From the NCBI RefSeq assembly GCF_036240795.1, contig NZ_CP108454.1, positions 8,058,001 to 8,122,000 of the forward strand: a stretch of DNA of 64,000 nt, written 5' to 3'. Under the pieces are notes generated by a model. It searched no databases. It had not been told where the DNA came from and saw only the letters and a list, made by a program, of their open reading frames with translations. Origin of the DNA: Streptomyces sp. NBC_01268. Lineage in GTDB: Bacteria > Actinomycetota > Actinomycetes > Streptomycetales > Streptomycetaceae. Positions 49,409-54,393 of the stretch are shown in pieces. How positions within the stretch are numbered: position 1 is the first letter of the stretch; each line of letters begins with the position of its first letter. Position numbers and translations under genes: made by a program.

Positions 49409-49431
49409 TTGTCAGTGGCCCCCACTAACGT
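49409..49431 (+). promoter_or_regulatory. PafBC/RecA-independent DNA-damage-type promoter
   Basis: The sequence reads TTGTCAGTG, an 8-nt spacer, then TAACGT. This matches at every defined position the motif known from mycobacteria for RecA-independent, PafBC-activated DNA-damage promoters (TTGTCRGTG-N8-TAnnnT). It lies 43 bp before the macrodomain ATG, so transcription would start near 49438 and leave a short leader. This suggests the macro and UDG-ART genes respond to DNA damage. Confidence 0.75.
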
Positions 49432-49473
49432 CGGAGGTGTTGGAAGAGGCTGTTCCTGACAGGGGGATATGTG

Positions 49474-50151
49474 ATGGCTGAGGGCTGCGCGGAGACGACG
49501 CTCAGGGTGGTTCTGACGGACGTCAACGACGGCGTGGTGAAGGCGTGGCGAGCGGCGTTCGCCGACACGCCGGGCATCGAGATCCGCCGTGGTTCGATCC
49601 TCGACGAGAACGTGGACGCGTGGGTCACGCCGACGAACGCGGCGGGCAGGATGGACGGCGGGGTCGACGCCGTGATCAAGCGGCATCTCGGTGCGGGTAT
49701 CCAACTGCGGGTGCAGCGGGCGATCAAGGACAGGTTCGCCGGGGGCATGCCGGTGGGCAGCGCCGTGTGCGTCCCGTCGGGGGCGACCGTCCCTCGCTTC
49801 GTGATCTCCACGCCGACGATGGTGGCCTCCTCGCAGAACGTGAGCGAGACCCTGAACGTGGCGATGGCCTGTGCGGCCGCCTTCCAGGCCGTGCACCGGC
49901 AGAACCGGCGGGCGCCGGGAAGCATCCGCTCGGTCGCGCTGGTCGGGATGGGCGCGCGGACCGGCGGCGTGCCGGCCCGGGTCTGCGCGAATCTGATGTG
50001 GACCGGCTACACGCTCTTCCACGACCACTGGTTCGAGGACGACGACGAGCTGCGCGCCACGATCACCACCCAGCTCGCCGGCATCGAGCAGGCTCCGGCC
50101 ACGACGAGGGTGCGGATCACGCCGCCGAAAGGGCATTCCTTTCGCCGCTGA
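49474..50151 (+). CDS. Macrodomain protein (ADP-ribose binding or hydrolase)
   Basis: 225-aa protein whose core is a macrodomain. Visible signatures are IEIRRGSILDENVDAWVTP, then the substrate loop PTNAAGRMDGGVDAVIKRHLG (residues about 50-70), and the second loop ALVGMGARTGGVPARVCAN near 160. The family binds ADP-ribose, and many members remove it from proteins or DNA. A GTG at 49471 is also in frame; ATG 49474 gives better spacing (7 nt) from AGGGGG. It is first in an operon with the UDG-ART fusion 70 bp downstream: an ADP-ribose eraser next to a writer is the logic of DarTG-type toxin-antitoxin pairs. Whether it acts on the partner's product is inference. Confidence 0.85.
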   Translation: MAEGCAETTLRVVLTDVNDGVVKAWRAAFADTPGIEIRRGSILDENVDAWVTPTNAAGRMDGGVDAVIKRHLGAGIQLRVQRAIKDRFAGGMPVGSAVCVPSGATVPRFVISTPTMVASSQNVSETLNVAMACAAAFQAVHRQNRRAPGSIRSVALVGMGARTGGVPARVCANLMWTGYTLFHDHWFEDDDELRATITTQLAGIEQAPATTRVRITPPKGHSFRR

Positions 50152-50221
50152 CGCCGGGCCCGCCGCGCCGACCGCCGGCCCTGACCCCCTCTCCGCCACG
50201 ACGACCGGGAGTTCCTCCTCC

Positions 50222-51889
50222 ATGAGCGACAGCACCCCGCCCACGCCTCCCGCCTCCCCGGCCTCGCCGGAGCCCGACGCGAACGACCCGCTCGGCCTGA
50301 CCGGTCTGTTCACGGGCGGCGGAGAGCCCTGGCTTCCGGTCCTCAAGCCGGTCATCGAGGCGCGGCCGGACGCCGCCACGTTCATCGGCCCGGGCCGCAG
50401 CCCCCAGGTCGTCCCCGTGCGCGAGCTCACCTTCCAGGCGCTCAAGCCCAACCCGCCGCACAAGTGGAAGGTCGTCGCCTTCGGCCAGAACCCCTACCCG
50501 CGGCCGGAGAGCGCCACCGGCATCGCGATGTTCGACAACACCTTCAACGACTGGAAGGACAGCCAGTTCGGACGGGTCGTCAGCATCCGCTGCCTCATCA
50601 AGGCGGCGGCCATGTGGAAGTACGGCATCCCCAAGAAGACGCCCGTCGGCGACGTCCGCGCCCTGCTGAAGGAACGGGACACGGTCCAGCCCCCCGAGTG
50701 GTTCCAGGCGATGCTCACGCAGGGCGTGCTGCTGCTGAACGCCTCGTTGACCGCCAGCGCCGACGGTGCGATGGGCACCGACCAGCACACCGGGTTCTGG
50801 CGCCCGGTGGCCGAGCGGATCGTCGAGGAGATCCTCCGGGCCAAGCAGGAGGCCGTCGACGAGGAGGACCGCGGCGTCGTGTTCGCCTGGTGGGGCGCTC
50901 ACGCCCGCAGTCTGAAGCGGACCGTCCTGCGCCTGCAGAAGAAGTATCCGGGCGTCGAGGTCCGGCACATCGACCACGCCAATCCGGCGGCACAGGGTGA
51001 CCTCTTCTGCGAGGGAGACCACTTCACCACGGTGAACGACGCCCTGCTGTCGCTCGGAGCCGAGGCGATCGACTGGCTGCCGAGCAAGGGCTGGGACAAG
51101 CAGCCCACCGGCGAAGGCGGTCCCGGTGCCGCCGGCGGTGCAGGCACGGACACCGGAGTCGCCGCACGGATGGGGGCCTTCATCGCCTCGACGATGGAGC
51201 TCCACCAGCTCTACCTGGAACGGCTCACCAGCGTCCAGGACGAGGGCCACGTCCTGCCGCCGGTCACCGGGGTGTTCGACACCCCGCTGATGCCCTTCGA
51301 GGACGCCGTCGCCCCGGTCACCGGCGTGCTGTCCGGGCTCGCCCGCCACATCGAGCGCTCGCGTGACTTCGGCAAGCGGCGGGCGGACGAGCAGAGGGGG
51401 GCCGGGCTGTCGGCCGACGCCATCGCCGCGCTCTTCCTCTACACCTGCGAGTCGGGCTTCTACCGGAACATCAACGCCGTCCTGCGGTCCGCGGACCGCA
51501 GCCGCGTCGTGCCCTACCTGCCGTACCTGCGCCTGCTGTTCTCCGCGGTCTCGGAGCTCCCCGCCCACGACCGACCGCTGTGGCGGGGTGTGGGCCTGGA
51601 CCTGCGGCGGCAGTACCCGGTCGGCGAGACCGTGACCTGGTGGGGCGTCTCGTCCTGCACGTCGGAGCTGAGCGTCGCCCGCTCGTTCCTCGGCAGCCGG
51701 GGCAAGCGCACGCTGTTCGAGGTGACCCCCGCCCGCGCGGTGGGTATCCGCAGTTTCTCCGCGTTCACCGGGGAGGAGGAGTACATCCTCGCCCCGGGCA
51801 CCCAGCTGGAGGTCACGGACGTGACGACCGAACGCGGCGGACTGTGCACGGTCAAACTGACCGAGGTGGAGACCCGGCTCGTCTCCTGA
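50222..51889 (+). CDS. Fusion of uracil-DNA-glycosylase-like domain and R-S-ExE ADP-ribosyltransferase
   Basis: 555 aa. Residues about 80-290 align by eye with family-1 uracil-DNA glycosylase: WKVVAFGQNPYP (Asn90 where the catalytic Asp of GQDPYH would be), GVLLLNASLT, VVFAWWGAHA, and HIDHANP with GDHFTTVNDAL (His252; the usual HPSPLS is changed). Residues about 400-555 match an arginine-type mono-ADP-ribosyltransferase: LWRGVG (Arg455), SSCTS (Ser477-Ser481) and GEEEYILAPGT (Glu518-x-Glu520), the R-S-ExE triad. A Gly-rich linker lies between (EGGPGAAGGAGTDTG). Likely role (inference): a domain that recognises DNA or uracil lesions delivers an ADP-ribosyltransferase to DNA or to a DNA-bound protein. 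No signal peptide. It is in an operon with the macrodomain gene under a damage-type promoter. No published fusion of this kind is known to me. Confidence 0.8.
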   Translation: MSDSTPPTPPASPASPEPDANDPLGLTGLFTGGGEPWLPVLKPVIEARPDAATFIGPGRSPQVVPVRELTFQALKPNPPHKWKVVAFGQNPYPRPESATGIAMFDNTFNDWKDSQFGRVVSIRCLIKAAAMWKYGIPKKTPVGDVRALLKERDTVQPPEWFQAMLTQGVLLLNASLTASADGAMGTDQHTGFWRPVAERIVEEILRAKQEAVDEEDRGVVFAWWGAHARSLKRTVLRLQKKYPGVEVRHIDHANPAAQGDLFCEGDHFTTVNDALLSLGAEAIDWLPSKGWDKQPTGEGGPGAAGGAGTDTGVAARMGAFIASTMELHQLYLERLTSVQDEGHVLPPVTGVFDTPLMPFEDAVAPVTGVLSGLARHIERSRDFGKRRADEQRGAGLSADAIAALFLYTCESGFYRNINAVLRSADRSRVVPYLPYLRLLFSAVSELPAHDRPLWRGVGLDLRRQYPVGETVTWWGVSSCTSELSVARSFLGSRGKRTLFEVTPARAVGIRSFSAFTGEEEYILAPGTQLEVTDVTTERGGLCTVKLTEVETRLVS

Positions 51890-52123: not shown

Positions 52124-53788
52124 ATGATGGGTACGGAAGACGTCCTCAGGCTCACGGTGTCCGCGCTGATGACGCGCACCGGCGAACGGCAGGGCGATCT
52201 CGCCGCCGGCCTCGGGCAGTCGCAGGCACAGGTCTCGCGCAAGCAGGCCGGCAAGTCCCACTGGTCCCTGGAGGACGTGGATCTGCTCGCGGCCCACTAC
52301 GGGCTGCATCCCCTCGACGTGCTGGCCGGTCCCACGCACGCGGTCGGGGTCCTGCACGGAGCCGTGCCCAGCCTCCAGGCGGGCGCGCAAGCGCTCGCCG
52401 TGCCGCTGCCGCCCCGAGCGCAGCCCGAGTCGGCCCCCACCGTCGAGCCGCCCGCACCCGATGACCCCTCCGCGGCGCCGGACCAGGCGCCCGCGCCGGC
52501 CGGCACGGAGCCGGAGGAGGCGCCCCAGCAGCCGTGCGTGCTGTGTGGGCAACCGGCCACCCTCGAACTCGACGGCTTCCCCCAGCACCTGACCGCGGAG
52601 GAATGCGCGGCGGCCGTCGCCGCAGCCGCCGGAGCCGTGTCCCCTCCCGACCCCCGCCCCGCCCCCGCGGCGCCCGCGGCCGATCGCGAACAGCCGGTCG
52701 GCGCGGCCCCGGAACCATTCCCGACCGTGCCGGCCACCGCCACCCCGGCTGCTGAGCCCGCGGCCCCCGAGCCGGTCCCGCCGGTCGGGCCGACGGCACC
52801 GGTTCCGGCGCGCCCTGTGCGCAGTGCTCCGGGGTACGCCTCCGGCACGCTCGTGGAGCAGATCACGGACCGCGTGCACGAGGTCCTCGCCTCCTGCTCC
52901 GGTGAGGTCGACATGGCGCAGGCGGAGCTGGTCAAGGCGGCGATCCCGGACGTCATGACCCTGCTGAAGGCCTCGCGGGTAGGCGGCCGGTACGAGCACT
53001 CGGAGTTCCCGCCCACAGCGGAGATCCTGCGGAAGAAGTCGCAGAAGGGCGCGGACGACATCTGGGAAGGACGCCCGAAGTGGCGCAACCCGGAGCTCTT
53101 CGCGGCGGCGAAGAAGGGCGAGCGGATCGAGGTGACCGCGCTGGACATGAATGCGGCCTACCTCTCGGCGCTCAAGTGCTGGCTGCCGATCGGCCAGCTC
53201 CGCGAGGACACCAGCGGCGTGCACGACCCGAAGAAGGCCGGCGTCCACCTCGTCACCCCGCCCGACTGGCATCACGACGACCTGCCCAGCCCGCTCGGGG
53301 CCCGGATGGAACCGGGCGAACTGTGGGTCAGTGAGTCCACCCTGCGCCTCCTGCTCGACTGCACGCGCCAAGGCCTCGCCGACGCACCCGTCATCCACCG
53401 CTCCCTCGTCTCGGGCGCCTCGGAAGCACTCCTGGAAAAGCTTCGACGCGCTCTCGCGGAAACCCGGAAATCGGCTCTGGCGAATGGCGATGAATTGACC
53501 GTGGCCTATGTGAAGGCCATGTACTCTAAGTTCGTGTCGACGATCGGCGAGTCCAGTGCGAACCGTGAAATCCGCCGCCCGGACTGGATGCACATCATCC
53601 GCTCGAAGGCGTTCGCGAATCTCTGGATGAAGGCGCACAAGGCCTACAAGGCCGGACTCCAGGTCGTGGAGATCTCCGGCACGGACGAACTCCACATCGC
53701 AGGCGACTGGCGCACGGTCTTCCCGGAGGGCCGGGAACTGAACCAGGTGAAGGAAAAGCAGACGTACGTGCTCGGGGGTAAGCGCTGA
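52124..53788 (+). CDS. Xre-HTH protein with family-B DNA polymerase-like C-terminal region
   Basis: 554 aa. Residues about 10-65 form an Xre-type helix-turn-helix (RQGDLAAGLGQSQAQVSRKQ). Residues 95-245 are a Pro/Ala-rich linker with a CVLCG motif. The C-terminal half carries, in correct order, patterns of family-B (phi29-type) DNA polymerases: VTALDMNAAYLSAL (Asp341, Tyr346; motif A), YVKAMYSKFVSTIG (Lys464, Tyr467; motif B), ISGTDELHIAG (motif C with Gly for the first Asp of DTD) and KEKQTYV (KxY-like). The protein then stops, so the thumb region is missing. It may be a catalytically reduced polymerase fold used for DNA binding or priming. ATG 52127 is an alternative start. Its stop overlaps the next ATG. 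The comparison is by motif only and needs a profile search. Confidence 0.6.
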   Translation: MMGTEDVLRLTVSALMTRTGERQGDLAAGLGQSQAQVSRKQAGKSHWSLEDVDLLAAHYGLHPLDVLAGPTHAVGVLHGAVPSLQAGAQALAVPLPPRAQPESAPTVEPPAPDDPSAAPDQAPAPAGTEPEEAPQQPCVLCGQPATLELDGFPQHLTAEECAAAVAAAAGAVSPPDPRPAPAAPAADREQPVGAAPEPFPTVPATATPAAEPAAPEPVPPVGPTAPVPARPVRSAPGYASGTLVEQITDRVHEVLASCSGEVDMAQAELVKAAIPDVMTLLKASRVGGRYEHSEFPPTAEILRKKSQKGADDIWEGRPKWRNPELFAAAKKGERIEVTALDMNAAYLSALKCWLPIGQLREDTSGVHDPKKAGVHLVTPPDWHHDDLPSPLGARMEPGELWVSESTLRLLLDCTRQGLADAPVIHRSLVSGASEALLEKLRRALAETRKSALANGDELTVAYVKAMYSKFVSTIGESSANREIRRPDWMHIIRSKAFANLWMKAHKAYKAGLQVVEISGTDELHIAGDWRTVFPEGRELNQVKEKQTYVLGGKR

Positions 53789-54393
53789 TGACCGGATCTC
53801 CGGACCTGTGGTCCCGCTGGGGAGAATTCCGCAAATTCAATGCGCAGGGAATGAAGGGCGGCGAAGCCCTGATCCTGGAACTCAACCGGATCGTCTACTC
53901 GTCCGGCATCTCCTCGCCGATCACCTCGAAGCGCGGACTCGCCGCCCGCCTGCGCTACCTCGACAGCACGGCGGGCCGCGCCGCCCTCACGGAGCAGGGC
54001 GTGTCGGCCCGCACGATCCGGTCGTGGATGAAATCCAAGGGGAAGGTGACCCCCACGGCGGCGAACCGCGAGCGGATCGATGCCGCCTACTGGTTTCGCC
54101 GACGGGAGAACCTGATCCGCTCCGGCTGGCTCAAGCGCCACCTCGACAACGACGGCCGCGGTCGCCGGATGGAGATCTACCCCGTCGACCAGAGCCACGT
54201 ACCCGCCGAACGCCTGCGCCCCGGTCTGTCCCAGCGCTCCATCACGGTCCGCTACGTCTGGGGCGACCTCGTCGATGCCTGGGCCGCCCAGGACCAGGCC
54301 ACCGTCGACGAGATCTGGGACGACGTCATCAGCGACCTCGACTCCGACTACAACGCGTACAGCTACGTCTCGTCCGTCGGCATCGGGGCCTGA
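53788..54393 (+). CDS. HTH protein resembling Streptomyces telomere terminal protein
   Basis: 201 aa, translationally coupled (ATGA) to the polymerase-like gene. The central part reads RGLAARLRYLDSTAGRAAL then GVSARTIRSWMKSKGKV, a helix-turn-helix followed by a basic stretch (RIDAAYWFRRREN). This order (ARLRYL, GVSxRTI, R-rich) recalls the N-terminal half of Tpg terminal proteins of linear streptomycete replicons, which are of similar size and also follow a DNA-binding partner gene (Tap). The C-terminus is acidic (DEIWDDVISDLDSDYN). The resemblance is by eye and weak. It could simply be a DNA-binding protein of an integrated element. Confidence 0.5.
   Translation: MTGSPDLWSRWGEFRKFNAQGMKGGEALILELNRIVYSSGISSPITSKRGLAARLRYLDSTAGRAALTEQGVSARTIRSWMKSKGKVTPTAANRERIDAAYWFRRRENLIRSGWLKRHLDNDGRGRRMEIYPVDQSHVPAERLRPGLSQRSITVRYVWGDLVDAWAAQDQATVDEIWDDVISDLDSDYNAYSYVSSVGIGA

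Follow-up and report, generated by a model that had tools for sequence, protein, structure and literature searches.

A UDG-ADP-ribosyltransferase fusion paired with a macrodomain behind a damage-type promoter motif in Streptomyces: a possible lesion-directed ADP-ribosylation module

The window analyzed here is a 64-kb stretch of the genome of Streptomyces sp. NBC_01268 (8.058-8.122 Mb of the 8.505-Mb single-contig genome), and its subject is a two-gene module on the + strand. A DNA-damage-type promoter motif (49409-49431) is followed by a macrodomain gene (macro) and then, after 70 bp, by a gene (UDG-ART) that fuses a uracil-DNA-glycosylase (UDG)-like domain to an ADP-ribosyltransferase (ART) domain, an order that a preliminary description of this DNA had given and that was confirmed (Table 1). 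Sequence comparison shows that the macrodomain is co-inherited with UDG-ART and often fused to it, that the macro gene stands behind a RecA-NDp/PafBC-type promoter motif, and that the motif residues of macro, UDG and ART are conserved except for the UDG catalytic Asp, which has become Asn. Pairs of an ART with a macrodomain are of a known kind; the present module is set apart by its UDG domain, its promoter and its single-chain form of putative writer and eraser, and may be more than a variant of that kind.

Table 1. Features of the module in the window (positions counted from the first base of the window; residues numbered in the respective protein).
Feature	Position	Strand	Remark
RecA-NDp/PafBC-type promoter motif TTGTCAGTG-N8-TAACGT	49409..49431	+	42 bp 5' of macro ATG
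Macrodomain gene, 225 aa	49474..50151	+	alternative GTG start 49471; PF01661 E 2.7e-11
Macro loop N55-x6-G62-G63-V64-D65	49636..49668	+	first MacroD-type signature
Intergenic gap, 70 bp	50152..50221	+	without motif match
UDG-ART fusion gene, 555 aa	50222..51889	+	
UDG-like domain, residues 31-286	50312..51079	+	PDB UNG chains from E 2e-12
UDG motif A GQNPYP	50483..50500	+	N90 (50489-50491) at catalytic-Asp position of canonical UNGs
UDG motif B H252-A-N-P-A-A	50975..50992	+	replaces HPSPLS; His retained
Inter-domain linker	51080..51253	+	first part variable; pLDDT (predicted local distance difference test) <50 at residues 285-342
ART domain, residues 345-549	51254..51868	+	
ART R455 of R-S-E	51584..51586	+	invariant, 81 rows
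ART S477-S478	51650..51655	+	invariant, 43-row alignment
ART E518-x-E520	51773..51781	+	both Glu invariant, 81 rows

Relatives of UDG-ART were collected by a scan of 84,980 genomes, one per species, which reaches only close relatives and yielded 156 loci; the best 80 of these 156 were analyzed and, together with the window, form a set of 81 loci. By title, the best 80 all belonged to Actinomycetota, mostly Streptomyces, the remainder being Kitasatospora, Yinghuangia, Nocardia, Nonomuraea, Catellatospora and others, and the closest named protein among the matches listed was from Streptomyces (96% identity). A macro gene stood beside UDG-ART in 80 of the 81 loci, a neighbourhood on which the preliminary description had made its proposal depend, and the sole locus without it (L037) begins at a contig end. 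The two genes were arranged as in-frame macro-UDG-ART fusions in 30 loci, in tandem in 28 and divergently (head-to-head) in 22, and macro-UDG-ART single chains also occurred among the 120 proteins listed as relatives. The arrangement labels need at least nine changes when placed on the tree built from the 81 proteins, and the starred branches of this tree force at least four changes (gains or losses) for the fusion.

The survey of co-occurrence called for earlier covered a genus sample of 199 genomes, where UDG-ART (E <= 1e-50) was found in 31 and macro (E <= 1e-15) in the identical 31, with 168 having neither; related genomes are not independent in these counts. By coordinates, the genes are adjacent in 29 of the 31. 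In G446 the divergent macro and UDG-ART lie ~2.4 kb apart with an extra 486-aa open reading frame (ORF) inside (L196 3142-4602), and in G508 they are split over two contigs. The presence of both genes in the same genomes and the natural single-chain fusions support the view that macro and UDG-ART constitute one system. In a phylum sample of 396 genomes the full UDG-ART protein matched 19, three at full length and 16 by the UDG half only, and the ART domain alone matched eight. Three of these eight matches were strong and represented the module itself and five were weak; therefore, a wider ART-fusion family was not found in this sample.

The neighbourhoods of the module varied. No conserved third gene was detected across the 81 loci, the commonest other protein family occurring in six of them. 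The ORFs in this survey were filtered by codon-position G+C, and since the filter recovered the module itself in 74 of the 81 loci, it overlooks some genes. One fused copy is carried by a 335-kb linear plasmid, three more full UDG-ART matches lie in large replicons filed as plasmids, and all four of these plasmid-collection records also match macro. The copies from Nocardia, Nonomuraea and Catellatospora fall inside the divergent clade, although support for this is modest (88-91); the grouping suggests that the module may have spread by horizontal transfer. The possibility that the whole module came from phages was considered and is not supported, as phage matches cover the UDG half or macro separately. 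Six phage records matched the fusion by the UDG half only, and 19 contained macro relatives of 27-34% identity (H15-H33), several under or beside tail-fibre annotations. In viral contigs, the UDG-ART pattern search was without match, and macro gave 17 stretches, none of them confirmed. The nearest outside kin of macro that were seen include phage macrodomains (phrog_2613, E 1.8e-33; uncultured phage, E 9e-21).

The RecA-NDp motif is the PafBC motif (PMC6789036). Counting the window, 76 of 80 loci have its strict form, TGTC[AG]GTG-N8-TANNNT, 5' of macro, and one match was found elsewhere in 1.03 Mb on both strands. The strict motif was missing from L064, L065 and L075, and L018 has too little upstream sequence. 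In the divergent loci the motif is oriented to macro, and in the 64-kb window the copy before macro is the sole match (expected 0.01). The source genome contains 20 exact matches against 0 for the pattern read backwards. Besides macro, the genes behind them include ung (L199), the O6-methylguanine methyltransferase gene MGMT (L203), dnaX (L208), and the genes of the DNA polymerase III beta clamp (L211), RecA (L212) and ribosomal protein S6 (L207), as well as an ORF carrying an HHH domain of the RecD2 type (L201). A further copy (L200) precedes a short ORF, which by eye we take to be RuvC-like, and then RuvA, the start of which lies 559 bp on (ruvA operon). These matches support the promoter class named in the preliminary description. 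Two other ORFs behind the motif in the source genome encode a WGR-domain protein with beta-propeller matches (L214 1531-2964) and a DUF4132 protein (L197 551-1414). The WGR domain is known from PARPs.

For macro, Pfam matches at E <= 10 were Macro and Macro_2 alone, and N55, G62, G63 and D65 were invariant in 80 macro rows. MacroD-type macrodomains are described by two signatures, Nx(6)GG[V/L/I] and the diphosphate loop G[V/I/A][Y/F]G (PMC10951314). The first is present, with N, G and G invariant and the last position V or L in 72 of the 80 rows (A or T in eight); the second is replaced by G-[M/L]-G-A at 158-161. The arginine-specific family DUF4804 gave no profile match at E <= 10, and its WDxx[S/A]xPGN motif is absent from the window macro. 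A structure model of macro (pLDDT 57) matched best receiver-type and other alpha/beta folds and was not used.

Pfam assigned the whole UDG-ART protein to PF01129 alone (E 5e-12), which remained alone at E <= 10, so the UDG half had no Pfam match even at that level. The UDG fold proposed for this N-terminal half was nevertheless recovered from its matches to solved family-1 UDGs (PDB E 2e-12) and from the UNG chains in the Foldseek list for the UDG-ART model, and NCBIfam ung models matched it below their cut-offs. The nearest PDB sequence is the Nitratifractor type of family-1 UDG (5x3g/5x3h), with which a PYPRPESA stretch is shared; the module differs from it by its ART fusion and by the Asn in place of the catalytic Asp. 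This change, in the motif GQNPYPR, was found in 81 of 81 UDG-ARTs, while the canonical UNGs aligned (18 rows, 17 distinct) all have GQDPY. The Asp is kept in all three standalone relatives of the same UDG type that were seen (NsaUNG, Ensifer, DAC17); therefore, as far as seen, its loss goes with the ART fusion. Y92, F104, N173 and H252 are invariant in the 81 proteins and align with what we take to be the pocket residues of family-1 UNGs.

The HPSPLS loop, whose Leu is the intercalating residue in family-1 UNGs, is replaced by HxNPAA. Loss of this Leu was dropped as a second crippling change, two of the standalone relatives likewise being without HPSPLS. Relative to the window copy, the median nonsynonymous divergence (dN) was lowest for UDG (0.078, against 0.143 for the linker, 0.155 for ART and 0.141 for macro), and the median ratio of nonsynonymous to synonymous change (omega) was 0.18 for UDG, 0.18 for the linker, 0.27 for ART and 0.24 for macro (80 comparisons; 78 for macro, which L037 lacks and for which L070 was dropped because of a stop codon). 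Judging by the low dN and omega of the UDG domain, the Asn is not decay.

The ART fold with R-S-ExE in the C-terminal half, also part of the preliminary description, was recovered by Pfam, alignment and matches to solved ARTs; ARTs that modify arginine have the ExE pattern. The domain is a putative NAD-dependent transferase. With ART2.2, Vis and ARTs of the 6drh type it has the fold and R-S-ExE in common, and it differs from them in being fused to a UDG, coupled to macro and without a signal-type hydrophobic segment. The highest 19-residue Kyte-Doolittle mean was 1.14 in UDG-ART and 1.20 in macro, so neither has a strongly hydrophobic segment. The suggested likeness to DarTG stood in part. An ART gene adjoins a macrodomain gene (80 of 81 loci; 29 of 31 genomes), and reversible ADP-ribosylation and a possible DNA target would be shared. 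A closer kinship was not found: the PF01129-type ART gave no DarT-family Pfam match at E <= 10 and no PADLOC match, the PADLOC DarG match to macro (E 0.018, 12.5 bits) was not significant, and DarTG differs from the module in the UDG domain, the damage-type promoter and the single-chain fusions.

Eukaryotic repair is characterized by reversible ADP-ribosylation at DNA lesions, and the bacterial ART-macrodomain pairs known to us are toxin-antitoxin or effector pairs. We tentatively read the module, with confidence somewhat short of even, as a damage-induced, reversible, DNA-lesion-directed ADP-ribosylation system in which the UDG domain reads a uracil-like lesion and aims the ART, and macro is the eraser. 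DNA damage would lead to production of both proteins, and the UDG domain would bind uracil that had arisen through deamination of cytosine or incorporation of dUTP, or else a related base; without its catalytic Asp, it would hold this base or excise it only slowly. The ART would thereby be brought to the lesion and, using NAD+, would attach a single ADP-ribose to an arginine in a protein bound to the DNA; the exposed base is an alternative acceptor, less expected for an ExE-type ART. Macro, often in the same chain, would then remove or bind the mark and so keep the signal local and transient. A damage-induced, self-limiting mark is favoured because of the steady pairing, the fusion of putative eraser to writer, the reader-like change in the strongly constrained UDG domain and the motif shared with recA and ung. 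Joining writer and eraser in one chain would suit a mark that resets itself more than an antitoxin that must be labile.

Overall, the module would be a small bacterial counterpart to PARP/PARG lesion signalling, which it would resemble as a damage-directed ADP-ribose writer with a macrodomain eraser; it differs in its type of ART, in the expected mono- instead of poly-modification and in a UDG fold as reader. SCO6735 of Streptomyces coelicolor, likewise a Streptomyces macrodomain behind this promoter class, is RecA-NDp-controlled and ultraviolet-inducible and removes ADP-ribose from thymidine in DNA (PMC5087735, PMC9411070). It differs in being ALC1-like and in having an amino acid permease as upstream neighbour, and the available parts of these sources mention no ART or UDG partner. 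No SCO6735-named entry was found among the 16 PDB sequences matching the window macro at E <= 1. Inactivated UNG serves as a laboratory sensor of uracil in DNA (PMC7505663), and the UDG domain of the module is a candidate natural uracil reader. It may also be, at slightly longer odds, that the module represents a bacterial pathway of lesion-directed ADP-ribosylation in which a UDG that lost its catalytic Asp became a reader of uracil in DNA carrying the writer, and the eraser too (in one chain in 30 of 81 loci). In the boldest form of this idea, UDG would flip the uracil and the ART would mark the base itself, giving a reversible uracil tag in DNA. PARP10 reversibly ADP-ribosylates uracil bases in vitro, including deoxyuridine in single-stranded DNA, and TARG1, DarG and SCO6735 erase the uracil mark on RNA (PMC13036486). 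The module would offer a compact, genetically tractable test of bacterial lesion ADP-ribose signalling, or reveal a new uracil-sensing defence.

Several observations weigh against the lesion-directed reading. ExE predicts an arginine acceptor, yet removal of arginine-linked ADP-ribose by macrodomains of the MacroD, PARG or ALC1 type is stated to lack evidence (PMC10951314), so that the assumed match of writer to eraser may not hold. This tension would be resolved if the acceptor were a group other than arginine, if macro were a reader, or if macro had a new chemistry. The macro fold model was uninformative, with no macrodomain entry among the model matches shown, and the UDG active-site region was poorly modelled (pLDDT <50 at residues 90-133). 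About 11 of the 19 other ORFs behind the motif in the source genome have no clear link to repair (MFS transporter, ABC-permease, TerD, sigma-factor, hydrolase and unmatched ORFs). In the divergent loci a motif copy directed to UDG-ART beats shuffles at 0.01 in 13 of 22, mostly in degenerate form, and not in the other nine. An initial search in S. venezuelae suggested that the mycobacterial PafBC motif is not conserved there (PMC9380542); this is not fatal to the promoter claim, because the source genome has 20 motifs against 0 reversed. Finally, the patchy distribution (31 of 199 genomes) and the shifting neighbours resemble an accessory defence or toxin module more than core repair.

Because of this patchiness and the mobility of the module, a role in toxin-antitoxin action, abortive infection or phage defence is a close rival, although we regard it as unlikely on balance. 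The ART would be a toxin for DNA-bound targets or a consumer of NAD+, restrained by macro and released by uracil-rich or damaged DNA, such as that of phages. UDG-ART was never without macro in the judgeable loci (80 of 80) or genomes (31 of 31), the neighbourhoods vary and one copy is on a linear plasmid, and effector toxins that have immunity partners (6drh, 8za7) are among the closest solved folds of the ART. Brig1 shows that anti-phage action is possible for a DNA glycosylase; like the proposed UDG reader it is directed at an abnormal base, but it excises this base, and the available part of the source (PMC11078745) names neither an ART nor a macro partner. However, macro and ART are in one chain in 30 of 81 loci, so that the eraser cannot be lost separately, and the relatives listed are under purifying selection (75-96% identity) with no rapid change. 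The promoter motif is common to recA and ung, and PADLOC has no match for UDG-ART. In L070 (Nocardia crassostreae) a stop codon, real or a sequencing error, lies in the macro frame beside an open UDG-ART, which is hard to explain if the ART is lethal, unless it is an error.

The UDG domain may still excise its base, since human UNG with the same D-to-N change (D145N) reportedly loses activity only ~20-fold (PMC10505916); a UNG double mutant that includes this change was called inactive (PMC11162499). On this basis a further and distinctly improbable explanation is a glycosylase of slow or altered specificity, whose Asn works as in TDG/MUG and whose ART then marks the abasic site, repair proteins or itself for release. 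TDG/MUG-type enzymes act with Asn, Asn can support activity in other UDG families, and all other pocket residues are conserved in the module. The source genome, however, contains a normal, separate ung behind the same motif, and each of the three standalone relatives seen still has the Asp. Very improbable is a decoy, in which UDG baits phage UNG inhibitors and their capture turns the ART on: such inhibitors exist (8ail is a complex of phage p56 with Ung) and a weakened UNG with a preserved pocket is plausible bait, but bait does not need a conserved uracil pocket. Least credible of all is a secreted polymorphic toxin with macro as immunity protein, for although a toxin-like gene adjoins a putative immunity gene and several of the ART folds matched belong to secreted effectors, neither protein has a strongly hydrophobic segment, the immunity is fused in the same chain and the promoter is of the damage type.

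An open-licence PMC literature search gave no report of a combination of UDG, ART and macro, which is no proof of absence. Elsewhere in the window, three giant ORFs of 5983, 3529 and 4340 aa occupy 2110-42507, the middle one being a modular polyketide synthase by Pfam. Downstream of the module, at 52124-54393, are genes for a helix-turn-helix protein and a 201-aa protein, whose relatives occur in about 150 plasmid records, several of them close to the record end (e.g., 4.5 kb into an 84.5-kb record). The pair is reminiscent of the Tap-Tpg telomere proteins and gave no NCBIfam match, although in this genome it is located ~395 kb from the contig end.

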